Positions 15,809-61,283 of a stretch of 64,000 bases of DNA are shown here, one piece after another. This DNA comes from Onthophagus taurus (lineage: Eukaryota > Arthropoda > Insecta > Coleoptera > Scarabaeidae), in the NCBI RefSeq assembly GCF_036711975.1, contig NC_091972.1:23131001-23195000 (forward strand), given 5' to 3'. The notes under the pieces were generated by a model that saw only the letters and a program-made list of their open reading frames with translations, had not been told where the DNA came from and did no database searches. How positions within the stretch are numbered: position 1 is the stretch's first letter; the number at the start of each line of letters is the position of its first letter. Both the position numbers and the translations under genes were made by a program.

Positions 15809-15849
15809 TAAAAAATACTGGAAAAATGTAAGTGGTGCGTTAATTTTGT

Positions 15850-16740
15850 CCAGGAGTTTATTACAACAATCTCCAACTTAAAAGAGGAATCAAGGTAGGG
15901 GCTTGTTCACAGACTGGATATTTACTGTATTTCTCAGTATATGAAGGCAAGAAGGAATGCAACGAAGAGGGCTCCTTGGGCGAGAAAACTACTAGAATTG
16001 AGCCCTTCGAAAACAAATTCTATTGCATTTATTTTGACAATTTTTTTACGAGTTTCTCATTATTATCAAAGCTTCTTGACAGAAAACTGTTCGGATGCGG
16101 AACGCTGAGGTCAAATAGAAAAAACTTTCCGAAAGAACACTTAGTGCCAGACAAAAGTCTCCGATCAGGTGAATTTGATACTGTTGGCACCAGCAATATA
16201 ACTGTCAACAAATGGAAAGACAGGGGAACAAAATGTGTATTGGTCGCCTCTACGATACATTCGGCTCTTGAAAAATCACATGTCAACAGAATGACAAAGG
16301 AAGGTGTCAAAGTCACTGTTCAATGCCCTAAAAGTGTTGACGATTACAATCAACACATGGGTGGAGTTGATCGATTTGATCAACTCCACTCATGTTACAG
16401 TATAGCCTGGAAATCACGAAAATGGTGGCTAAAATTATTTTATTATATAGTCGATGCCAGTATTGTAAACTCTTACATTTTATATTAACATGGGGCTTCT
16501 ACCAGTCAACCTAAATTTAAAGCAAAATAACATCTAATATTTAGAAGTATACTCGCAAATCAACTAATTGGACAGTTTACAACAAAAAAATTACGGGGAT
16601 CATGGTTAGTTGTTGGCAAAAACAAAATGAAAAAAGTCGATGGAAGATCGATGACTGTGGAAAATACTATAAGAATGAATAATGTTGGCGAACACTTACC
16701 AACTAACACGACTTCTCGGAGATGTGCATTGTGTAGCACC
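15850..16740 (+). pseudogene. piggyBac-like transposase, C-terminal half
   Basis: The open frame 15976-16488 carries FYCIYFDNFFTSFSLLSKL (catalytic Asp), GCGTLRSNRKNFPKE, VLVASTIHS and VDDYNQHMGGVDRFDQLHSC (later catalytic Asps), then KWWLKLFYYIVDASIVNSY. This is the DDE_Tnp_1_7 (PGBD) fold. After a stop at 16486 the family sequence continues to about 16735 and ends in a CxxC (RRCALCS), as in the C-terminal cysteine-rich domain. The N-terminal part is missing. No TTAA-flanked ends were found. Confidence 0.85.
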
Positions 16741-18640: not shown

Positions 18641-20655
18641 GAACGTTTTCACACCCAACAGAGTAAGGTGGGCCATTTCTAATTTCAAGCCCCTAAAATC
18701 GCCTGGAGGAGATGGAATTCTGCCTATTTTTCTGCAAAAAGGCTTAGAACACCTCCCAGTAATAATATCCCTATATGTAGCTAGCTATAGTTTTAGCTAT
18801 ATACCCACTCTATGGAGAAAAGTAAAGGTGGTCTTCATAGCTAAAGGTGGTAGGCATTCAAACGCGGACCCCAAGGCATACAGACCAATTAGCCTAACTT
18901 CATTTCTCCTCAAAGGAATGGAAAAGGTAATCGATCAATACCTTAGGAATGGAGTGCTTATCACTAATCCACTCCACCTTAGCCAACATGCTTACCAGAC
19001 TTACCACTTTAGAGGAGGCAATTGCAACCAAAGAGATAACCCTATGTGCTTTCATAGACATAGAGGGTGCGTTTGATAACACCTCATATGAATCCATAGA
19101 GAAGGCTCTAAACGTAAAATCCATCGACAACCAAGTGGTGTATAGCCATGTTGAAAAGTCGGCAGATCACAGCCAGTCTGGGAGACGAGTCGATGACTAC
19201 AAAGGCGTTAAGAGGATGTCCCCAAGGGGGAGTGCTATCACCTCTATTATGGTGCCTGGTAGTTGATGACTTGATGAACACCCTAACTAAAAACAGATTT
19301 AAGATACAAGGGTATGCTGATGACCTGGTAATCACAATCCGAGGTAAATATGATTCAATCATAACTCAGCTAATGCAGAAAGCCCTACTACTCACCAGTA
19401 CTTGGTGTAGAAGCAATGGGCTCAGCATCAATTCCAATAAAATCGAAATAGTCCCTTCCACTCGGAGAAGGATGCTACAAATACAAGCACTCTCCATTGA
19501 AAGCAGAACTATTAACCTCAAAACAGAAGCTAAATACCTAGGGGTAATACTTGACAGTAAACTAAACTGGAACTCACACTTAGATAAGGTGAGGAAAAAG
19601 GCCATCATAGCAAACCAGATCTGCCGCAGGCTCCTATTAAAGAACTGGGGTCTCAAACCACGAATGGCTCATTGGGCCTACATAGCAATAATCAAACCCA
19701 TGGTCGCCTACGCCTCATTGGTATGCTGGCCAAAAATAAAATATAAGACAGCACAACAACAGCTGGCACAAATCCAGCGGTTAGTATGTCTTAACATAAC
19801 GGGTACAATGAGATCCTGTCCGACGGCTGCTTTGGAAGCCCTACTCGGTCTCAAGACACCTTGAAATCCTCAAGGACCCATGTCTAAATCACCTGATTGA
19901 AATTAAAACGGACCTCATACCGACAAAATACAATTTCAACCAGCCGTATAAGGGCATATTTAGAAGCAGGGATGATTGGGCGAAGGGAGGGCCTTAACTA
20001 AAAAGAGGAGCCCTAGCCTGGTACACCGACGGCATGGGCATCAGTGAACCAAATAGCCACAAACAGCAACATTAAGGGCAATGAGAACTCGGACAAGCTG
20101 GCCAAAGAGGCAGCGAACACGCTCTTCATTGGACCCCAACCTGGTTGTGGACTACAAAAAAGCCACCTAAACCAATTAATCAACAACTGGGAGGTTTCAA
20201 AGATAGCCTTACGCTGGAAAGAACTTCCAGGTCACAGACAAGCGAAGAGTATGATAACTCCGTCGCAAAACAAAACCAAAGAGGTTTTATGCCTCAGCAA
20301 AGAGGATCTAAGAACGCTCTCAGGCTACCTGACCGGCCATGCGCCCCTAAAATACCATCTCTTCTACATTGGACAAGCTGAGGATCAAACTTGTTGACTA
20401 TGCAACGACGATTCAGAAACTGCTGAACATATACTGTGCAATTGGGTAGCCAGAGGCCTTCTAAGACACAACATTTTCGGTAAAACTCCCCTGTTACCTA
20501 CCGACATAAAGGTTCAAGACCTCTGGACAATACTAAGGTTCATCAAGGACCTACATTTGCCCTAAACCTTTGGAGGGCTAAAGTTACAATAGATCTTATA
20601 GGTCGCGGTAACGAGAGGGGCCGCTCTCCTCGGCCCGGCAGCAATAATAATAATA
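18640..20655 (+). mobile_element. LINE with reverse transcriptase and RNase H, (AAT)n tail
   Basis: The RT begins at about 18660 (ISNFKPLKSPGGDGILP; KAYRPISLTSFLLKGMEKV), frameshifts near 18980, continues with ITLCAFIDIEGAFDNTSYES (motif A) and then 19148-19864 with GCPQGGVLSPLLWCLVVDDL and QGYADDLVI (catalytic YADD). After 19864 come broken RNase H and zinc-knuckle parts (NEN SDKLAKEAAN near 20080; CNDDSETAEHILCNW near 20400). The end is a GC-richer 3' UTR closed by (AAT)n at 20641-20660. The RT-RNH order points to the R1/LOA/I group. Frameshifts make it inactive. Confidence 0.88.
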
Positions 20656-30380: not shown

Positions 30381-33300
30381 ATGTTTGAGGACAATTATTC
30401 TGATGAAGTAACTGGGCCAACTCTTCGCATAGACGTACCAAGTTTATCAACCCAAAAAGCAAGAAGTATTACAAGCGAAAAAGTCTTTGGCGATTTGGGC
30501 TGGAAGAACCTCTTATTAGTTCAATTTCAACGTCCGTTTACTTTCGCAATTTACGTTGGTATCATAGCATCTTATTGCATTATAGTTTTCGAAGCTGGAC
30601 TATCGTTTTCCATCCTACAAAACGAAACTCCCCTTGAGGTGTATATAACAAAAACGAAAGGAGTCATTTACGCGTTCGACGCCTTTTTCTTCATGGATGT
30701 GATGTTTATGATTATCTTTAAAAATACTGAGTGGCCCGAATATAGTCATCGGTTTAAAGCTAGAAACGCTGGTATATTAATCATGGAGATGTGTTCGTTG
30801 ATTCCGATTGACGGGATTTACTATGCTATTGCTGTAAAGAAGAAGCCGTCGTCGGTAAATTTTTTACGATTAAGATATGTTTTTAGAATTATTCGGATAT
30901 TTTACGATCAAAGGATTCCGTCGGCGATGACTAAAGAGCAATCGTTGATAATAAATACGGAAAAGTTGTTGATAACCGTTGGGGTTATGTGCTGCACGCT
31001 TGCTGCGTTAGTTCTCCCGTATATATGCGAGTTAAAATGTTTCCCAGAGGAGTTAGATAACGTGATGTATTATTATTTATACGTCGCTTCTGAGAAAATT
31101 ACCGGAAAAGGTTTTGGGAAGGTGTATTTCCACGCAAACTTAAACAAAGGTTTTGCAATTCAAGTATTTAACTACATAGGATTTATGGCGTATTTAGTTA
31201 TGGGGTATATCGTAAGCAAAGCGATTTGTATGTATATTTCCAATGATAATCACGTATATTCATATTTAACTAAATACAAAACTATCAAAGATGAATTAAA
31301 TAATTGGCGAAAAAGAAATCTTGCAATGTGGAGGATGCACGATGAATGTTTAGTTCGCACAATTGAGGCATATTACCGATTGATTTGGACTAAAAAACGG
31401 TGGTGTGTAACTATGGCTTTCACCCAAGAAGTTCTTCCTAAAGTTATGTTTAAAGACGTTTACTTAGATATGTCATGGAACGGGTTTAAACACTCCCACT
31501 TATTCAAAAACCAAGAAGTACATTTTCTACGGGAAGTAGCAACCTATATGAATCATTTAGTTTGCGCCCCAGGCGAACTTCTTTACGGCAGAGACCGAGA
31601 AAAACAAGGAATGTTTTATATTAAAACCGGCATCGTGCAAGTTTTATCAGAAGAAAATGGCGAAACTCCAATCATATCATTTTCCGGTGGTACATGTTTA
31701 GGAGAATCCACTTTAATAATTGGTTACGACTCAAATTGGAGCGTGATGTGTAAAACGTATTGCGAAATAAGTTTTTTAAAACGTTCCGATTTTATCAAGG
31801 TGAGTTTAATTTATCCTCGCGAATACCACAGATTGATAACAACGATTTCAAGAAGATATTTAAAAGCTAGGCGATACAGAGAATTATCTGAGTATCAATG
31901 GGAAAAATTATTAATTACAAATCCCGATACGGTAATAATGATTTGGTTGAAAAAAACGTTGCATCAATTGGTTGAAAACGAAACGATTTACAAACAAGAT
32001 GATTCATTTCGTGAGGAGGAGTTGGTTTTTTGTCCCGATTATTTAAATCTTTTGGTGATTACGGAAGATATTGAGTTGGTTATTGATATGATTTTTTTGA
32101 AAACTACGTTCCCGGCGATTTTTCAACCCGAGTCTGTTGTTTTAGATGGTTGGAACATATTCATTAGTATTATTGCGTTAATAATTTTTCTTTTTTATCC
32201 GTGTTATGCACTTTATTGCGGCACGATTACACACGCAACTCACGTTCTTATATTAAGTATTATAACATTTATTTGTTTGACGGATCTTTATATTCAATCT
32301 TCAACAGCCGTGCGTACTAAAGATACGCTTCTTACAACGATACCTTCAATAATTTATAATCGCTTAACAAACACGGGATTTTTGGTGGATTTATTTTCTT
32401 CGATACCTATTAGCATATTTTTTATCTTAATGAATAATCAGGTATCATACGAAACTTTGGTGCTAACTGAGATTCATAAACTTTTAAAAATTTACCGATT
32501 AAATTTCACCTTTTCGAAATTGGAGATGCTTCGGATTACTAATAAGATGGTTCTTAAATATTTTAAGGTTTTTTTGGTGGATTTCTTTTTATTTTATTAC
32601 ACAGCTTTGGTTTTGTATTACGTTATTTGTAACTCAACGAGTCGTGGGTGCCCCAAAGAATACCTTAATTTGATTGTTGAGTACTTTGATGATAGCCAAT
32701 TCAATGTTTTGTTGCACCTTTTCACGGTTGCAAGTACTTTTTTGGGGAATATGACCTTCACGGATTTGCTTAAATTCATTAAGTACGATCAAGTTGGGAT
32801 TGTAATAGCTGTCCAATTCCTGTACGCTTTCTGCAGCGTTTTCGTTTTGGCGTATATTTGTATTATGGAGACGTTGCGCGATAAAGAGGTGCATCAATAC
32901 AAGGAGTTTGTGGCTACGGTTGATGTGGTGTTGAAGGATTTAAATGTGAGCTCTGGATTGCAGCGAAGAATTAGCTTGTATTTGACGGATCAATTTTGGG
33001 ATAATAAAGGTTTACACCTCTTAAACCCGATGCTTTTTAAGAATAATATGTCGAATAATCTTTATTCGTTAATGAATCAAATTCGATATGAAAAGCTTCT
33101 TCACGATTTACCCTTACTCGCCGATTTAGAAGAAACTATAATTATCGACTTTTCGCGAAAATTAAAGGTGACTCATTATCCCCCAGGGGAAGTTATAACT
33201 TACGCAGGGGAAGTGTGCAAAGAAATGCACGTCATTGAAGTTGGATTTTGCCAAGTTTTGGGGAGTCAAAATAAAATATTGCATCCCAGTGAAAGTTTTT

Positions 33301-36300
33301 GCGTTATCGAAACGTGTATGCGAATACCGACGTTTTATACCGTGGTAACATTAACCGATTGTAACGTACTGTCTTTATCGCAGATGGAGTATGCAAGGTT
33401 GGCCACTAAATATCCAGATTTTGGTGCTTCAATTAGCGAAGCTTTGGAATACACGATTTCGGGGGAGAAAATAAATCAGATACAGAGTACTAATCGCGAG
33501 GTTGATATGTTAAAAGTGGATGTTAAGGATCAATTATGCAGGAAATTTAATGTTAAGACTACTCTAGAAAAGATGCGTTACTCCAGCGAATTTGGAACTT
33601 TAATGTTTTTCATGAAGTTTATCATAATGCGGCGCACTTTCCCCACAAATGGTAAATTCATTTTTTATTGGGAATGGTCCAGATTGATTTTCGCGTTTGC
33701 CACAAATATCTTTACCAGATATGCTTACACCGCAGATACATCTTTCCCTTATTACTTCTGTTTGTGCATGGATATGACAGCTTGGGTCGACATCTATGTA
33801 AGACACCACGTTTGCTACTACAACGATAAAGGAACTGAAGTTAGCCATCCGGCAAAAACTTACATTCATTATTGGACCAACGGATTATTAATAGACATGC
33901 TTTCTTGCGCACCCATCGATTATTTATTCGGCCAACCATCTACTAAACCTTATTTAAAATTAAACCGATTTTTGCAACTATATCGCCCCCTTCGTTTAAT
34001 GAAATACATAAACGACAACAACATATCACGCTCGAAATTGTACGATTTGTTTAAATATATTCCTTTCGTTTTTGTAACGATCGATTTTATGAGCACCATC
34101 GCTACATACTTAACATGCGCATCTCCAATCAACATAAACCTCGAAAATGTATCTTGCACCGCTGAACATTGGGCCAAATTACATTTGAATAATACGAATC
34201 TTTCGCCACAACTCAAATTACATACAGCAAGTCTCATTGTTACCGCTACATCCCTCACGGTGGTTAGTTTCCATCGTGTCTATTTAAGTTCGAAACAAGA
34301 ACTTCTCAACGCTGGGTTTTTCATAATATTTGGGCACATATTTTTCGTGTGGATGGCTGCTCGATTGGTATCGAATAGTTTCTACAATGAAACTGACTTA
34401 ATCGCTTACCAAGAAGCGATGAGGCACTTATTAACATTCGTTGCTGCAAGAAAAATCGATAAGAACATAAAAAACGAGATCATCGCGTATTACGAGTTTA
34501 TGTGGAAAAAAACAAAAGGAAAAGATTTGATGGTGCTATTAAACGCTTTTAGTACCGCCATTAAAGAAGATATTCTATACGACATGTTCGGAAAGGCTCT
34601 GAATACATCATCAACTTTTCTAACAGCACCCAAATCCTTCTTCAAAAGCTTATTATTAGAATCAACTTATGAAGTATACGTACACAAAGGAATTATTTAT
34701 AGAGTTAACGACGTGCACGGTTACATCTACATCCTTCTCAAAGGTACCATTGATGTTCTTGGGGCCGATTACAACAAACTGCTTATATTATCCCCCGGAA
34801 GTATTTTTGGAAACTTAGATAACGTTCTTCGAAGCAGACAAACATTGACTATGATCGCAAAAGGGCACGTTGAAGTATTAAAAATAGCTTCGCTACAATA
34901 TCACGTCGTGATATCAAAGTATCCCCAAATTATGCGATTTTACACTAAATTAACTAGGTTTAACGTGGATTACATCGAAAATCACGATGAAGATCTTATG
35001 CATAAATACTCAACCATGACAATGCAGTCAATTGCCTCATTAACTCCTTCCGGAGGTAAATGGCGCCGATCTTCAAAATCAAGTAGAATGTCAGATAAAG
35101 TCGATATATTATCATTAAGTAAAATGAGCGCCACACAAAATTACTCAAAAGTTTTTAGGGTGATCAAAAATAATGGTTGGATTAAATTTATTCGCTTATC
35201 AATTATTTGTATAAGTTGCTTCTTTGGATTTCATTTAGAAATATATCAATTAGGAAATTACGACGATAACGTCATAGTGATCTGCCTCTTATATTTCTGC
35301 GACTTATTGTATTTGGGAAAAATGTATCTTGACTTTTTCACCAGCTATGTCGACGACACCGGATTAATCGTAACCGATTTATTCTTAATAAAAAAGCGCT
35401 ACATGAGCCAACCGTTTGGATTTTATTTCGATTTGGTCGCCCTAATTCCTGCCGAATTATTTTCATTGGGCTTTATCACTCAATCGTACTTTTGGATCAT
35501 ATGGACATGGTTCAGAAAAAATCGCTTAATAAAAGTAATATATTATTTTTATTTATTGAAAGTAAGCAAAGCTAAATTACACGTAAACGTAAAAATTGTC
35601 AGCATCATCCATATAATATCCTGGTTAACAATCCTCCTTCAAACAATGAGCATTCTATTATTAATGTCCCATATCATTGAAAACACCAACCACGAAGACA
35701 AACTCTCGCTTTTAATCAATTCGTTTGAAATGATAACTTATGCAGCTTCCGGTACAGCTCTTACAGAGGCACCATTCACGTTTACCATCTATTCGATAAT
35801 CAGCGTGTTAATAACAATGTTAGTTTGCAAGTTCTTCATCACTTTATTTATAGCGGAATTATGCTCGTTAATCGAAAACGTCTACCAGAACAAAAGCAAG
35901 TATCGTATATACGCTTTATATTTAAAATATCAACTCAGAGAAGAAGATGTTTCCGTACCTCTCCGCAAACGAGTGGGTGAATATCTCAATTTACTTTGGA
36001 TTCATCATCGAGGATTTCAATATCCAAGCCTATTAAACCAAGCGCCTTATTACTTAAAAGAAGCCATTTTAAACGCAATGTATGGTTTCCATTTACGTAG
36101 ACATCCCCTCATTAAACACTGCCATACAGATCTTATCAGACAAATGTCGGCCACGTTCGACGTCTTAATATTCTTTCCGGGAAATTTTGTTGCTTACATT
36201 GGGGATATCGACGGATGCATGTATTTCATACATAAAGGAGAAATTCAAGTATTAATCGAAGACAGTTTGCAGCATGAAAATGCTGTAGACGTGTTACGAA

Positions 36301-36488
36301 CTGGAGATTGTTTTGGATTAGATCAGGGATTGTATAAAAATTGCGGACATGATTATAGTTACAAAGTAACAAAAAAATCTATTGTTATCGCACTTAATAA
36401 AGACAAATGGTTTCATTTACTTAAATTTTTTCCCGCTTCAAAGACCGTTTTGTTCGATCTTAGGAATGCATACATGGATAATTATTAA
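30381..36488 (+). CDS. Four-repeat cyclic-nucleotide-gated-channel-like protein (pseudotetramer)
   Basis: One uninterrupted frame of 2035 residues. The start is an AAAATG context with an in-frame TAA 30 bp upstream. Four repeats of about 500 residues each have a 6TM-like region, a pore loop, a C-linker and a CNBD-like domain. Repeat 1: S1 about 53-72, S4 with Arg163/165/169/172, filter TGKGFG (241-246), CNBD about 375-500 with Gly-Glu kept (Glu442). Repeat 2: TM from ~590, filter STFLGN near 785-790, CNBD ~930-1050. Repeat 3: S4 Arg1196/1202/1205/Lys1208, filter VVSFH near 1292-1296, CNBD ~1430-1530. Repeat 4: TM from ~1600, filter AASGTA near 1788-1793, CNBD ~1930-2030. The architecture matches CNGK channels of sea-urchin sperm and aquatic animals, but only repeat 1 keeps GFG and no CNBD keeps the phosphate-binding RTA motif. 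Between repeats 3 and 4 is a Ser-rich linker with a PKA-like RRSS (1562-1565). Plasma-membrane location is inferred. Confidence 0.95.
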   Translation: MFEDNYSDEVTGPTLRIDVPSLSTQKARSITSEKVFGDLGWKNLLLVQFQRPFTFAIYVGIIASYCIIVFEAGLSFSILQNETPLEVYITKTKGVIYAFDAFFFMDVMFMIIFKNTEWPEYSHRFKARNAGILIMEMCSLIPIDGIYYAIAVKKKPSSVNFLRLRYVFRIIRIFYDQRIPSAMTKEQSLIINTEKLLITVGVMCCTLAALVLPYICELKCFPEELDNVMYYYLYVASEKITGKGFGKVYFHANLNKGFAIQVFNYIGFMAYLVMGYIVSKAICMYISNDNHVYSYLTKYKTIKDELNNWRKRNLAMWRMHDECLVRTIEAYYRLIWTKKRWCVTMAFTQEVLPKVMFKDVYLDMSWNGFKHSHLFKNQEVHFLREVATYMNHLVCAPGELLYGRDREKQGMFYIKTGIVQVLSEENGETPIISFSGGTCLGESTLIIGYDSNWSVMCKTYCEISFLKRSDFIKVSLIYPREYHRLITTISRRYLKARRYRELSEYQWEKLLITNPDTVIMIWLKKTLHQLVENETIYKQDDSFREEELVFCPDYLNLLVITEDIELVIDMIFLKTTFPAIFQPESVVLDGWNIFISIIALIIFLFYPCYALYCGTITHATHVLILSIITFICLTDLYIQSSTAVRTKDTLLTTIPSIIYNRLTNTGFLVDLFSSIPISIFFILMNNQVSYETLVLTEIHKLLKIYRLNFTFSKLEMLRITNKMVLKYFKVFLVDFFLFYYTALVLYYVICNSTSRGCPKEYLNLIVEYFDDSQFNVLLHLFTVASTFLGNMTFTDLLKFIKYDQVGIVIAVQFLYAFCSVFVLAYICIMETLRDKEVHQYKEFVATVDVVLKDLNVSSGLQRRISLYLTDQFWDNKGLHLLNPMLFKNNMSNNLYSLMNQIRYEKLLHDLPLLADLEETIIIDFSRKLKVTHYPPGEVITYAGEVCKEMHVIEVGFCQVLGSQNKILHPSESFCVIETCMRIPTFYTVVTLTDCNVLSLSQMEYARLATKYPDFGASISEALEYTISGEKINQIQSTNREVDMLKVDVKDQLCRKFNVKTTLEKMRYSSEFGTLMFFMKFIIMRRTFPTNGKFIFYWEWSRLIFAFATNIFTRYAYTADTSFPYYFCLCMDMTAWVDIYVRHHVCYYNDKGTEVSHPAKTYIHYWTNGLLIDMLSCAPIDYLFGQPSTKPYLKLNRFLQLYRPLRLMKYINDNNISRSKLYDLFKYIPFVFVTIDFMSTIATYLTCASPININLENVSCTAEHWAKLHLNNTNLSPQLKLHTASLIVTATSLTVVSFHRVYLSSKQELLNAGFFIIFGHIFFVWMAARLVSNSFYNETDLIAYQEAMRHLLTFVAARKIDKNIKNEIIAYYEFMWKKTKGKDLMVLLNAFSTAIKEDILYDMFGKALNTSSTFLTAPKSFFKSLLLESTYEVYVHKGIIYRVNDVHGYIYILLKGTIDVLGADYNKLLILSPGSIFGNLDNVLRSRQTLTMIAKGHVEVLKIASLQYHVVISKYPQIMRFYTKLTRFNVDYIENHDEDLMHKYSTMTMQSIASLTPSGGKWRRSSKSSRMSDKVDILSLSKMSATQNYSKVFRVIKNNGWIKFIRLSIICISCFFGFHLEIYQLGNYDDNVIVICLLYFCDLLYLGKMYLDFFTSYVDDTGLIVTDLFLIKKRYMSQPFGFYFDLVALIPAELFSLGFITQSYFWIIWTWFRKNRLIKVIYYFYLLKVSKAKLHVNVKIVSIIHIISWLTILLQTMSILLLMSHIIENTNHEDKLSLLINSFEMITYAASGTALTEAPFTFTIYSIISVLITMLVCKFFITLFIAELCSLIENVYQNKSKYRIYALYLKYQLREEDVSVPLRKRVGEYLNLLWIHHRGFQYPSLLNQAPYYLKEAILNAMYGFHLRRHPLIKHCHTDLIRQMSATFDVLIFFPGNFVAYIGDIDGCMYFIHKGEIQVLIEDSLQHENAVDVLRTGDCFGLDQGLYKNCGHDYSYKVTKKSIVIALNKDKWFHLLKFFPASKTVLFDLRNAYMDNY

Positions 36489-36538: not shown

Positions 36539-36544
36539 AATAAA
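36539..36544 (+). promoter_or_regulatory. Polyadenylation signal for the channel gene
   Basis: AATAAA lies about 50 bp after the stop codon of the channel ORF, in an AT-rich 3' flank. No genomic poly-A tract follows, so the sequence gives no direct sign of recent retroposition. Confidence 0.6.
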
Positions 36545-37040: not shown

Positions 37041-38745
37041 TAGTGAATACAAGAGTTAGATTGACGCTAGGAATTATTTTTGGCGGTAAATTTAAATTCA
37101 CATTTCACTATTTATTGACTATACAGGTGTCCCCTATCTTTCGCATCAGAGCATTATACGGTTGTAGGATACATTATTCTGAAGCGATTTTTCTAATAAT
37201 TTTTTTTCAAAATGTTGTTTCGAAAATGTCCAATAGCGGATTCACGAAGAGAAACGTGTTATGAGCATCGCGGCGATGCCGCCAAGTTACGAAGACGATC
37301 GACTCCGAAGGATTCTGGCCCTGGTTTGTCCATTGATGGGATTTCGGATAAACTTTTTATCAATGAGCATCTTACCCAAGCGAACAAAATCCTCTTTGGG
37401 AGAACCAAGATGGTCAGGGAGAAGAAGTACAAATATGTATGGATCCGTGACTGCAAAATATTTGTGTGGAGAGAGGATGACTCACGCCCCATCTTAATAA
37501 GATCCACGGGTGACATTGATAAGCTTTCATTTGTCATTTGTCTTATGTCTTTCTTTACAACTTACTTGTTAATGTTCAATGACTCCTCTTTCGTGTTACT
37601 ACCAAAACGTGCGAGGTCTTCGCACTAAACTGGTTGATATGTATAATGGCCTTCGTGAATACCTTTCACCAAGGTATTCACTCTGCCGAAGGCTTTCCCT
37701 GTTATTACAGAGTTTTCGTGGTGGTGGCGTGTTGATTGCGGCGGCATCTTCCCTGTCTGTCCTTCCGCAATCAACATGGCTTGTGGACCTTAAGGCAGTG
37801 TGTGTTACTCTACCGACCGGTTCTATTACTTTACACATTTGCTGCGTTTATATTCCTCCTTCTGATCATAATGCATTGTTTAATTTTATTAATGAAATTG
37901 ATTTAATTATTGAAAGCCATCCTAATGACAAATTCTTGATTTTTGGCTATTTTAACCTAGCTGATATTCGCTGGTCGGCCGATCTCGCTTCTTCTGTTCG
38001 TTTGGGTGAGTTTCTGGATGCCCTCGCCTTATGTGGTCTCAACCAATTTAATTTTCGCATGAATGCCTTTCAGAACACTTTCGATTTAATTTTCGCTCAT
38101 TTTTCTAATATATCTTCTATTTCATTAAGCACTCATCCTCTGATTCCCGAGGATAGTGTTGATATCACTTTAGAATTCGTCTGCTCTTTAGAAATATCAC
38201 CCCGCCTTCCTGCTGAATCTTCTAACGTGTTTAACTTCAGACGTGCTAATTTCTCTGACATTGATTCGTACCTCTCTACTATTAACTGGGATACAGAGCT
38301 AAATACTCGTGAAGTAGACCCTGCTGTTAATTTCTTCTATTATCATTTAAATTTTGTCATTCAAAAATTTACACCGATCAAACGCAAATTCACTTGTGCT
38401 TTTCCGATGTGGTTTTCGCGAGATACTCTCAGAGTGATCAGAGAAAAGCGAAGGGCTCATGTTAAATGGAAACGGTATGGAAACCAAATAGATTACTTGA
38501 CTTTTTCATTATTGCGAGGGCGTTCCAAGTTTCTCATTCGGTGCGAGTATGGGAAGTATGTTGGTGGTGTCGAGAGCAGTATTAAAGCTGATCCTAAATA
38601 CTCTTGGTCTTATATTAAAGATAAGAAAGGCGCAGATACAATTCCTACACCTATGACATTTGACAACAAATGTATGATTGCATCTTTTAGTGAAATCTTA
38701 CTGAGTGTTGCAGCTATTCCTTCTTCCGGTGATACAACAGAACTG
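37041..38745 (+). mobile_element. LINE: end of ORF1 and endonuclease, inactive
   Basis: The frame 37212-37560 is the C-terminal part of a LINE ORF1 (LFINEHLTQANKILFGRTKM, then EKKYKYVWIRDCKIFVWRED). The following frame (37579-38760) is an endonuclease and linker: SCYYQNVRGLRTK at the start, then GGGVLIAAASSLSV, HICCVYIPPSDHN and FLIFGYFNLADIRW. The canonical GDFN is GYFN here and the later SDH motif is not intact, so the nuclease is dead even though the frame is open for 394 codons. At about 38745 it is interrupted by a Tigger fragment. The RT domain is not found beyond. Confidence 0.85.
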
Positions 38746-39690
38746 AGCAAACTGTTTTTATAGTACAATTTGGTAAGCCTTAAAATATTTTGGTTCATGG
38801 GTTGTATTAAAGACGTAACATTATGAGGTAAGAATTTTACAAAGATCATCCCATCTTTAGTCCTCAGTTCTGTTGCTGGTGGATGGAACGGCGCGTTATC
38901 CACAAGGAGAATTGTTTTCTGAAGTATCTCGTGAGCACGCAGAAAACATCTCACCTACGAATTGTAGAATATAATTTTGAAATATAATCAGCCTTATGAA
39001 ACAAATGGTAGAAAAAAAAAAGTTCCTAAAACACCTTGGATTTTTTGATGTCTCTATCACTAGGGGTTTCAGCTTATGTAAGTCAGAAACATTTACACAA
39101 CCCATAAATGTCAGTTGTTGCTTGGAAATTTTTAGTTCAGGAGCAGTTTTTTCTGCTAATAAGACATAAGATTTGTCAGGCAATAAGCGCCAATGCAATC
39201 CTGTCCCATTAGCATTATAAATCTGATACCGCTTTAGGTCATGCTCTTGAATCATACGTTTTAGATCCTCTTTAAAAGGATCTACTGCATCTGGGTTAAC
39301 GTATAATTTCTCCCCTGCGATTTTCACAAAACCTTAAGCCTTAAAGGTGTTTAAGTCTTTGCAGCCAACCATCACTGAAAGGCCCTGGAAGTATCAATAT
39401 TCAACTGATACTTCAATGATAACGAAAATGCCTTTAGTTTCAGCATATTTTCCGAAATTCGTGAATTCTGTTCTCTTTCTTTAAGAAACCAGTTGTACAA
39501 TTTCTCTTCTAAAAGTGGAAATGCAAACTTTTTCAAGATTCATTTTTTTGATGGTTTTAGCGTGTGAGTTATCGTATACAATAAGTTTTTAATTTTTGTC
39601 TATACCACAAATTGTTGATTTTGAAACTCCATATTTTTTAGATAACGTCGTGACTCAAAGATTTCTTTAATTTTGACAGAAAGGCACAAT
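38745..39690 (-). pseudogene. Tigger/jerky-like transposase fragment
   Basis: Minus strand 39327-39010 holds the start of the DDE core (KRYQIYNANGTGLHWRLLPD; the usual NADETGL is NANGTGL). Minus strand 38954-38750 holds the later core (ILQKTILLVDNAPFHPPATE, then FLPHNVTSLIQPMNQNILRL). N-terminal HTH parts lie further right, to about 39690, with stops. Both the first and last catalytic positions look mutated. It is inserted at the end of the LINE endonuclease frame. Confidence 0.82.
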
Positions 39691-59384: not shown

Positions 59385-61283
59385 ACTGACGATGCCAGTG
59401 CTAATTATTCTCTGTGGAAGGCAACAAGAAAGCTTAAAGTTCCAAAAACACATACACCTCCAATTCGAAATAATAATGGAAATTGGGCTAAGAGCAATCA
59501 AGAAAAAGTTAATTTGTTTGCTGAACATCTAAAAGAAACTTTTACATCAGACAGTCCAACAACTATGCTAAATAGTGTCCCTAGCGTATTTCAAAGTGAT
59601 CAGCAGAGTAATATACCATGTGTAAGAATGAAAGAAATGTATTATGAAATACAAAAACTAAATATAAAGAAATCAGTGGGCTATGACCTAATTAATGGTG
59701 AAACATTGAAACATCTACCAAAACGGGCGATTACAAAACTATTACACATAATTAATGCTGTTTTTAAATAGAAATACTTCCCAAGCATATGGAAAGTTGC
59801 TGAAATAATAATGATATCAAAACCTGGTAAACCCCCCACAGATGTTACATCATATAGGCCAATCTCATTATTACCCTTACTATCAAAACTGCTTGAAAAA
59901 TTACTATTAAAAAGGCTAAAACCTGTCATAGAAGAAAAAGCCCTAATACCAACACATCAATTTGGGTTTCGGAATAAACATGCAATAATAGACCAAGTGC
60001 ATAGAATAACGAATACTATCTAAATAGCAATGGAAGAAAATAAAGTCTGCTCCGCCATATGTTTGGATGTTGCACAAGCTTTCGACAAAGTCTGGTTAGA
60101 TGGTTTAAATTACAAACTAGACCAAATACTACCATAAACGTATAGTCAACTACTAAAATCATATCTTTCTGATCGATATTTTAGAGTAAAATACAAAAAC
60201 GCTTATTCACCAATACATGAAATACGAGCCGGAGTTCCTCAAGGAAGTATGCTTGGCCCAACATTGTACTTACCCTACACATTCGACCTTCCTCAGGTAC
60301 CAGAAACTTTAACAGCTACATTCGCAGACGACACCGCGATCTTGGCTGTTGCAGAAAATGAAGTAGTTGCAGCAAATAAGTTACAATTGGCATTAAATTC
60401 AATAGAAAACTGGACCAAACGATGGCTAATAAAACTAAATACAAATAAATCGACATATATAAACTTTACTTACAAGAAAGTAAACTATGTCCCAGTACAC
60501 ATAAATGGCAATGCAATCCCTTACGCCGACACCGCAAAATATCTTGGTATGACGCTGGATGCCAAACTCAAATGGAAAGCTCACGTCAAAAAAAAACGTG
60601 AGGAACTTGATATCAAATTTAGACACCTATATTGGCTTATTGGCAGAAAATCAACGCTATCACTAAAAAACAAGTTGTTAATATACAAGCAAGTATTAAA
60701 ACCAAAATGGACATACGGAATCCAACTGTGGAGTTGTACCTGCAAGACAAATGCAAGTCTGATTCAAAGATTCCAGAACAAAGTACTAAGGTGCATAGTG
60801 AATGCATCCTGGTATATAAGAAACACCGACCTCCATCGCGACTTGAAAGTAGCATCGGTGTCATCAGAAATTGCATCATTCGCATGTAAACATGAGAAGA
60901 GAATGCACGATCATCCCAACATCGAGGCCATCCAGCTTTTTGACAACGAGGATGTCCTGCGTCGCCTTCAGCGGATGAAGCCGTTCGATTTAGTGACCTA
61001 GTGCCCTAGTCGATTCAAACGCGAGCAATAGTGCGGAGTTATAACAAAAACAATAATATCCAATACGTGTGTTCCGCGTATCGCAGTGTGCGCGTTTTTG
61101 TGTTTTGGTCTTAAAACTGTAAAAATATGACAATATTTATCTATATTATGGGTAAAGCAGACTGGACCACTGGAAAAAGCTGCAAAACATTATCTAGTTT
61201 AATTTAGTGTTAAAAATAAGTAACTAATTAGTATGTATTTACTAGGTGTTATACAATTGTGCTATACATAATATAAAAAAAAA
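59385..61283 (+). mobile_element. 5'-truncated Jockey LINE with poly-A and 12-bp duplication
   Basis: GCATTCAGCCTT occurs at 59373-59384 and again at 61284-61295, directly after a 9-A tail (61275-61283). Between them the plus strand reads a linker (GNWAKSNQEKVNLFAEHLKE), RT from KSVGYDLINGETLKHLP through SYRPISLLPLLSKLLEKLLL, ICLDVAQAFDKVWLDGLNYK (motif A), RAGVPQGSMLGPTLY, ATFADDTAILAVAENE (catalytic FADD), KYLGMTLDAKLKWKAHV and the tail LRRLQRMKPFDLV ending at 61001. Only three in-frame stops interrupt it (at 59769, 60021 and 60135), so it is among the youngest insertions here. Confidence 0.93.

Follow-up and report, generated by a model that had tools for sequence, protein, structure and literature searches.

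The locus and its gene product

The window analysed here, a stretch of 64,000 nucleotides from contig NC_091972.1 of the scarab beetle Onthophagus taurus, carries the single-exon gene LOC111425116, whose predicted product is built from four channel repeats (R1–R4), each with a cyclic nucleotide-binding domain (CNBD) (Table 1). One frame of 2035 codons runs open from ATG to stop, as an intronless reading in the preliminary description of this DNA had claimed, and lies at G000:C7:23161381-23167485 in the genome, stop codon excluded. Its nr match is P0001 (LOC111425116, Onthophagus taurus, 100%), annotated as "uncharacterized protein". With the base composition of the window, the probability that 2035 codons stay open by chance is ~10^-64, which rules out a chance frame, and a fusion artefact is ruled out by relatives elsewhere with the same four-repeat plan.

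When queried singly against the PDB with phmmer, every repeat matches solved CNBD channels, and S4-like segments of 21-24 residues with 4-6 Lys/Arg are found in every repeat; pairwise identity between the repeats is 19-24%. The top solved matches to R2, R3 and R4 are the prokaryotic CNBD channels SthK and 5v4s (the latter we take to be LliK), and the R1 pore, with its GFG filter, is best matched by a KCNH channel, KCNH1 (KCNH1 and KCNH2 we take to be EAG1 and hERG); TAX-4 is presumably the short name of one PDB chain. A profile built from 37 aligned family sequences and searched against the PDB reached CNGA1 and CNGA3 at E-values of 4e-76 to 3e-75 and HCN4 at 2.6e-51, so that CNG/HCN channels are the closest solved structures among the matches listed. 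In its alignment to CNGA1, coverage of R4 starts ahead of S1 and reaches the CNBD, and that of R3 extends from pore to CNBD. Judged by sequence, LOC111425116 is a member of the CNBD-channel superfamily (CNG/HCN/KCNH/CNGK).

The preliminary description had proposed four repeats with transmembrane segments, pore, C-linker and CNBD, and each of them does align to solved CNBD channels; the domain-family search that it suggested was answered in part. Pfam assigns cNMP_binding to four stretches of the protein (118 bits) and leaves Ion_trans undetected. Among relatives, Ion_trans was listed as precomputed for 8 of the 29 proteins matched by a family-consensus query; in a direct scan of five, P0036 fell just short of the cut-off of 25 with 24.1 bits and the model was not listed for P0010, P0020, P0008 and P0012, and in the genome search paralogue L010/L003 passed with 27.4 bits. 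Ion_trans matches were left unused as evidence. All matches in an ncbifam scan (CRP, FtrB, encapsulin and similar CNBD models) fell far under the cut-off.

Table 1. Features of LOC111425116 by position in the window, with the evidence for each.
Feature	Position	Strand	Evidence or remark
Single-exon gene, 2035 aa, four-repeat CNBD channel	30381..36488	+	LOC111425116, Onthophagus taurus
Repeat 1: S1-S6, C-linker, CNBD, residues ~48-500	30522..31880	+	phmmer to KCNH1, SthK; family alignment
Repeat 1 filter TGKGFG, residues 241-246, Lys243	31101..31118	+	on TSVGFG of KCNH1
Repeat 2, residues ~585-1030	32133..33470	+	phmmer to 5v4s_A, SthK
Repeat 2 filter region NMTFTD, residues 790-795	32748..32765	+	register uncertain by two residues
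Repeat 3, residues ~1090-1530	33648..34970	+	phmmer to SthK, KCNH2, HCN1, CNG
Repeat 3 S5-pore turret between Cys1246 and Cys1259	34116..34157	+	Cys in 42/42 at both columns
Repeat 3 filter SFH, residues 1296-1298	34266..34274	+	on GYG of SthK
Repeat 3 phosphate-cassette motif RQTL, Arg1486, Gln1487 at RTA Arg	34836..34847	+	SthK and family alignments
Repeat 4, residues ~1595-2033	35163..36479	+	phmmer to SthK, CNGA1, CNG
Repeat 4 filter region ASGTA, residues 1789-1793	35745..35759	+	register uncertain by two residues
Candidate AATAAA-type polyadenylation signal	36539..36544	+	consensus match only, ~50 nt past stop

Selectivity filters and the repeat 3 turret

Filter registers were taken from HMMER alignments to solved channels and from the family alignment. 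In R1, Lys243 occupies the Val column of the KCNH1 filter; Lys is found there in 7/7 proteins of the orthologue group (the window protein, P0002, P0003, P0004, P0005, P0019 and P0027), Arg in six other family proteins and Met in the sister paralogue L009. In R3, VSFH aligns onto IGYG of SthK. The GYG position corresponds to TFT in R2 and ASG in R4 by the solved-channel alignment, and to NMT and GTA, respectively, by the family alignment. The earlier calls of GFG after Lys in R1 and of SFH in R3 therefore stand, the FLG proposed for R2 was misplaced, and the GTA of R4 is uncertain by two residues; the accompanying idea of a pore that is asymmetric or no longer K-selective is supported by the unlike filters in both alignments.

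Among the 42 family proteins, 10 have a strict G[YF]G in the pore stretch of R1 (36 rows with at least 15 residues there) and one has it in that of R2 (41 rows); the R3 (42 rows) and R4 (39 rows) stretches contain none. Thus 11/42 proteins carry it in one repeat, 31/42 in none and none in two, with parts of the pore missing from some rows. The exception in R2 is VGYG of the C16 relative, the sole strict G[YF]G outside R1 in the pore stretches of the 42 proteins. Most members of the P0020 clade have LVTGLN in R2 and FTATSF in R4, and these filters are conserved within the clade at 0.79 and 0.70.

The S5-pore turrets also differ between repeats, with median lengths of 15 (R1), 26 (R2), 38 (R3) and 26 (R4) for boundaries set by hand. 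Both columns that bound the R3 turret hold Cys in 42/42 family proteins, Ranatra and the multi-exon genes included, and in L009 as well; Cys1246 and Cys1259 may be joined by a disulphide. Domain III of the four-domain Nav/Cav/NALCN channels likewise has two turret cysteines, a likeness in kind, and CNGK channels are described without such turret differences in the excerpts available (PMC6259924).

Nucleotide pockets

Aligned to SthK, the window protein shows SNW (R1), TFY (R2) and QTL (R3) at the RTA position, and in R4 the family alignment places His at the RTA Arg. The phosphate Arg is hence replaced in all four pockets, by Ser, Thr, Gln and His, respectively, and Gly-Glu is found in R1 only, with Cys-Val in R2, Gly-Asn in R3 and Gly-Leu in R4. 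The SthK and family alignments agree here with the preliminary description, which had seen no Arg-Thr-Ala motif and a Gly-Glu in R1 alone and had named gating by something other than cGMP as one option; all four pockets lack the canonical contact pair.

The same two contacts were followed in 42 family proteins, none of which has both in one pocket. At the Glu column of R1, 38 proteins have Glu and 3 have Asp, whereas the Arg column of this repeat never holds Arg; R2 has neither Glu nor Arg. The Glu column of R3 never holds Glu (Asn 25, Ser 7, Cys 5, others 5), its phosphate-Arg column holds Gln in 24 and Arg in 10, and the Arg1486 column Arg in 40. Arg-Arg-Thr, as in CNGA1, is present in R3 of 10/42 relatives, including O. 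taurus L010 (P0025) and L011. In R4, His stands at the Arg position in 35/42, and Glu is present in the five proteins of the multi-exon clade.

Two side observations concern these columns. At window residues 1486-1488, RRT (10/42) and RQ (24/42) indicate that the phosphate Arg of R3 was kept or lost by clade. The R4 His, at window residue 1990, could be a pH-sensitive switch, which is a guess.

Sequence constraint

Mean pairwise identity in 8-residue windows was computed for six proteins of the orthologue group. The R1 filter window (residues 239-246) scored 0.733, the top value of R1 S5-S6 (median 0.333) and the 92.8th percentile overall, and the R1 S5 and S6, scored as whole segments, are weakly conserved (0.34 and 0.32). 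Filter windows of the other repeats fell at the 23rd or 37th (R2), 64th (R3) and 53rd (R4) percentiles; by segment, the R2 filter scored 0.37 and the pore helix of R4 0.29. Over long blocks, conservation is highest in the C-linker and CNBD of both R3 and R4 (0.55-0.63), R3 having the best CNBD at 0.63. Selection therefore clearly holds the R1 filter and parts of the gating ring; the other filters are average at most.

Against four segments of three paralogues (469-1057 well-aligned codons), the proportion of differing silent sites (pS) was 0.77-0.79 and that of differing replacement sites (pN) 0.26-0.39, values limited to well-aligned blocks, which lowers pN, and with silent sites saturated. 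Saturated silent sites combined with far fewer replacement changes argue against a ratio of replacement to silent substitution rates (dN/dS) near 1, the neutral outcome that the preliminary description had wished to see checked; the comparison is between paralogues, not orthologues.

Gene family, distribution and age

Three queries on the O. taurus genome returned 32, 34 and 27 matches, counts that are lower bounds, and hand-merging reduced them to ~18 related places on contigs C2, C3, C5, C6, C7, C10, C11 and C16. Six of these, the window gene included, consist of one uninterrupted stop-to-stop frame of 1,900 aa or more, and one further place has such a frame of 1,686 aa; the remaining places are broken by introns, gaps or stops. 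With ~18 places and at least seven single long open frames, this is a gene-family radiation and not a single odd protein. Relatives sought in other beetles were indeed found: five proteins in Trypoxylus dichotomus (P0003, P0010, P0019, P0028 and P0030), further ones in Holotrichia oblita and Ignelater luminosus, and two in Abscondita terminalis. Scarabs, a click beetle and a firefly are thereby represented, and the water bug Ranatra chinensis adds a relative from outside the beetles.

The window protein retrieved 8 matches from 3133 candidates, one of them itself; the long relatives among them, which include one Trypoxylus protein, are 36-44% identical to it. The C16 relative retrieved 8 from 2934, two of which were fish CNGB1 at E ~1e-6, and a composite query aimed at CNGK, made of two family consensus blocks and one SthK block, retrieved 29 from 807, of which the 10 named were all from beetles. 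No CNGK sequence was returned by these three protein searches, and none was among the matches listed for three PDB searches (the best 60 of 84, 107 and 143).

In a tree of 76 repeats from 20 proteins, R1, R2, R3 and R4 each form one clade at 100/99 (minimum of three changes), the Ranatra rows being long branches. The repeats thus cluster by position across proteins and not with each other, the latter being a pattern that would have counted against the preliminary description. Accordingly, repeats have not been homogenised within genes, and the four-repeat order predates the split of the beetle clades and Ranatra. The best tree pairs R1 with R3 and R2 with R4 at a support of 79/34; the other two pairings have approximately unbiased (AU) test values of 0.36 and 0.22. 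In a quick full-length tree supported by SH-like approximate likelihood-ratio tests (SH-aLRT) only, O. taurus members interleave with genes of Trypoxylus, Ignelater and Abscondita, so the radiation is old; the sister of the window gene is L009, at C7:33.84 Mb. We regard it as almost certain that LOC111425116 belongs to an old, asymmetric four-repeat family.

Introns distinguish several members from the window gene. The C16 gene (L028/L029; G000:C16:2752927-2759609, reverse strand) was modelled with 8 exons and 7 GT-AG introns, its first end being unsettled, and P0012 (LOC111423625, C2:4666400-4680634) has 7 introns. The two share three intron positions, at alignment columns 1499, 1947/1948 and 2061, equivalent to window residues 1333, 1759/1760 and 1853, and about two of them also coincide with breaks in L022 (C6:6.89 Mb). 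The C10 gene (P0007) has three introns, 0/3 of which coincide with those of C16 or P0012. Single-exon members are likely to have arisen by retroposition; on the simplest reading, an ancestor with several exons gave rise to a processed copy, which would have founded the single-exon clades, with a few introns gained later.

Several further places were seen in passing. Two on C6 (G000:C6:193921-204005 and G000:C6:3114562-3122935) hold family pieces separated by stops or long gaps; they may have decayed, or may be genes that took up insertions. At G000:C6:6865533-6870133 (forward strand), ~16 kb before L022, two neighbouring open frames (837 and 846 aa) match Ion_trans. P0028 and P0030 (Trypoxylus g13688 and g13689) have consecutive gene numbers and lie on contigs of equal length, which suggests a tandem pair, and upstream of the C16 gene, on the same strand, a proteasome-like open reading frame was recognised by eye.

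Comparison with known channels

LOC111425116 and its relatives share with the CNGK/tetraKCNG channels (ApCNGK, SpTetraKCNG and DrCNGK) a single chain of four six-transmembrane repeats with a CNBD each. CNGK channels, known here from excerpts of the literature, occur mainly in marine invertebrates, fish and choanoflagellates. In these excerpts, their pores carry a G(Y/F)GD motif, sea urchin ApCNGK is opened by a single cGMP at the third-repeat CNBD and zebrafish DrCNGK responds to pH instead of cyclic nucleotides (PMC4749565); pseudo-symmetry without domain specialisation is ascribed to CNGK (PMC4749565, PMC6259924), and its repeats are described as related R1 with R3 and R2 with R4 (PMC7576140). 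In contrast, filters, turrets and pockets are repeat-specific in the insect family, CNGK being compared by description only. Of the canonical G(Y/F)G(D) filters, the window protein has GFG in R1 alone, and its repeat 3 departs from the functional cGMP pocket of sea urchin by Arg to Gln and Glu to Asn. This pocket is not strictly CNGK-defining, because zebrafish CNGK also lacks cGMP gating; as far as the excerpts describe it, DrCNGK does without cyclic-nucleotide control, as is proposed here for the insect protein. We did not file LOC111425116 as a CNGK because its filters are not those of CNGK; a CNGK ancestry is plausible.

The solved relatives differ from the insect protein in having one repeat per chain. 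CNG/HCN channels assemble from four subunits, and the CNGA1 pocket, NRRTA, has the canonical Arg; SthK and 5v4s have TIGYGD / TVGYGD filters, with PRTA in the SthK pocket; and KCNH channels have Val, not Lys, before GFG. The KCNH CNBD is reported not to confer control by cyclic nucleotides (PMC7576140, in excerpt).

An asymmetric pore, domain-specific filters and a Lys in one filter are features that the insect protein has in common with Nav/Cav/NALCN channels, in which the filter Lys lies in domain II or III and not, as Lys243 does, in the first repeat. Nav/Cav/NALCN channels are not known to have CNBDs. The insect protein has four, and its solved matches, as far as listed, are either CNBD channels or different proteins with a CNBD, which places it outside that line; since no Nav/Cav/NALCN channel is among them, the likeness is at most convergence.

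Proposed function and alternative explanations

The reading that we prefer, with moderate confidence, is that LOC111425116 most likely encodes an asymmetric, non-K-selective channel that is not canonically cAMP/cGMP-gated and belongs to an old family with specialised repeats. The four-repeat chain would fold as one pseudo-tetramer around one central pore, with four voltage sensors and a ring of four CNBDs surrounding it. A GFG-like strand is contributed by R1 alone, with Lys occupying one of its carbonyl sites, for which reason the pore is taken to be asymmetric and not K+-selective. A Lys in one strand marks sodium-selective filters in the Nav/NALCN line (PMC6259924, in excerpt), so the most natural expectation is a pore of weak or sodium-like selectivity. 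Opening would be driven by the voltage sensors together with the conserved C-linker/CNBD ring, itself set by a non-canonical cue such as pH, another ligand or an intrinsic ligand, for which zebrafish CNGK and KCNH offer precedents. Taken separately, it is probable that the product conducts, and likely that it is not gated by cyclic nucleotides. Its site of action could be sperm, a guess by analogy with CNGK and from the habit of retrogenes.

Several observations weigh against this picture. The filter windows of R2–R4 are of average or low conservation and S5 and S6 of R1 are weakly conserved, as would fit a pore that matters little. Lys243 is replaced by Met in the sister paralogue, and Pfam does not detect Ion_trans in the window protein. 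On the gating side, R1 keeps its Glu almost throughout, and the CNGA1-like Arg-Arg-Thr persists in R3 of ten relatives, though never together with the Glu; some members may therefore bind nucleotides, and this protein may do so through RQTL. The pN/pS values carry the bias and saturation given above, and gene models of relatives were taken as the databases give them.

These points bear on two alternatives. If the pore were dead, the protein could act as a non-conducting sensor or scaffold, with selection on the C-linker/CNBD ring and on voltage sensors that signal to partners; the high identity of the R3 and R4 C-linkers and CNBDs (0.55-0.63) beside low values in the filter of R2 (0.37) and the pore helix of R4 (0.29) is what this would predict, but nothing else in the R1 pore is as well conserved as its filter, the P0020 clade keeps its R2 and R4 filters, and the turret Cys pair is invariant in all 42 proteins, which makes it unlikely. 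Rather unlikely, too, is gating by cyclic nucleotides through an altered pocket, most probably that of R3, after the manner of sea urchin CNGK, where a single cGMP at the third CNBD suffices (PMC4749565, in excerpt). Here R3 has Arg-Gln-Thr where CNGA1 has Arg-Arg-Thr-Ala, ten of the 42 relatives have Arg-Arg-Thr, and R3 is the best-conserved CNBD of the orthologue group; however, its Glu column is never Glu, Gln replaces the phosphate Arg in the window protein, and no pocket in the family unites both canonical contacts.

The remaining alternatives concern origin. An ordinary CNGK orthologue whose oddness is mere divergence would account for the shared plan of one chain, four repeats and four CNBDs, and the best tree pairs R1 with R3 and R2 with R4 as reported for CNGK (PMC7576140, in excerpt). 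That grouping is weak, though, with neither alternative pairing rejected, and a strict G[YF]G in one repeat of 11 proteins and in none of 31 is hard to reconcile with it; we consider it improbable. A decaying, functionless retrocopy would fit the single exon, the transposon pieces nearby and the several paralogous places split by stops or gaps, but this very remote prospect was rejected on the 2035 open codons, the long relatives at 36-44% identity and the paralogue comparison, in which silent sites are saturated and replacement change is low. More open, and advanced tentatively as somewhat short of an even chance, is a separate origin, within the CNBD (potassium-channel) superfamily, of a Nav/Cav/NALCN-like design, a processed copy of which then seeded the single-exon beetle radiation. 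Under such an origin, four linked domains would have diverged, domain III acquiring a turret bounded by Cys and one filter strand a Lys, and the beetle clades would each have fixed their own four-part filters, so that nature would offer a set of graded pore codes unrelated to the Nav/Cav line.

Four-repeat CNBD channels are now placed in beetles, outside the main described hosts of CNGK, and the unlike repeats of this family speak against pseudo-symmetry as a rule for all channels of that plan. Among the titles and abstract openings listed from the open-licence literature, none describes an insect four-repeat CNBD channel, and the main text of a study of male reproductive genes of dung beetles (PMC8382682) gave no match to the terms sought. 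The many divergent paralogues and clade-specific filters make the evolution of pore asymmetry testable by expression, and the family likewise makes CNBD gating without canonical ligand binding testable. If testis-expressed, these genes might bear on insect sperm function where CatSper is missing, which is again a guess.

Surroundings of the gene

Transposon fragments lie on the forward strand around LOC111425116, at 15844-16488, 19118-19864, 37573-38763 and 60138-61001. They comprise a transposase (DDE_Tnp_1_7), two pieces of reverse transcriptase (RVT_1) and a piece of endonuclease (Exo_endo_phos_2), the last of which is 1.1 kb downstream of the stop codon.

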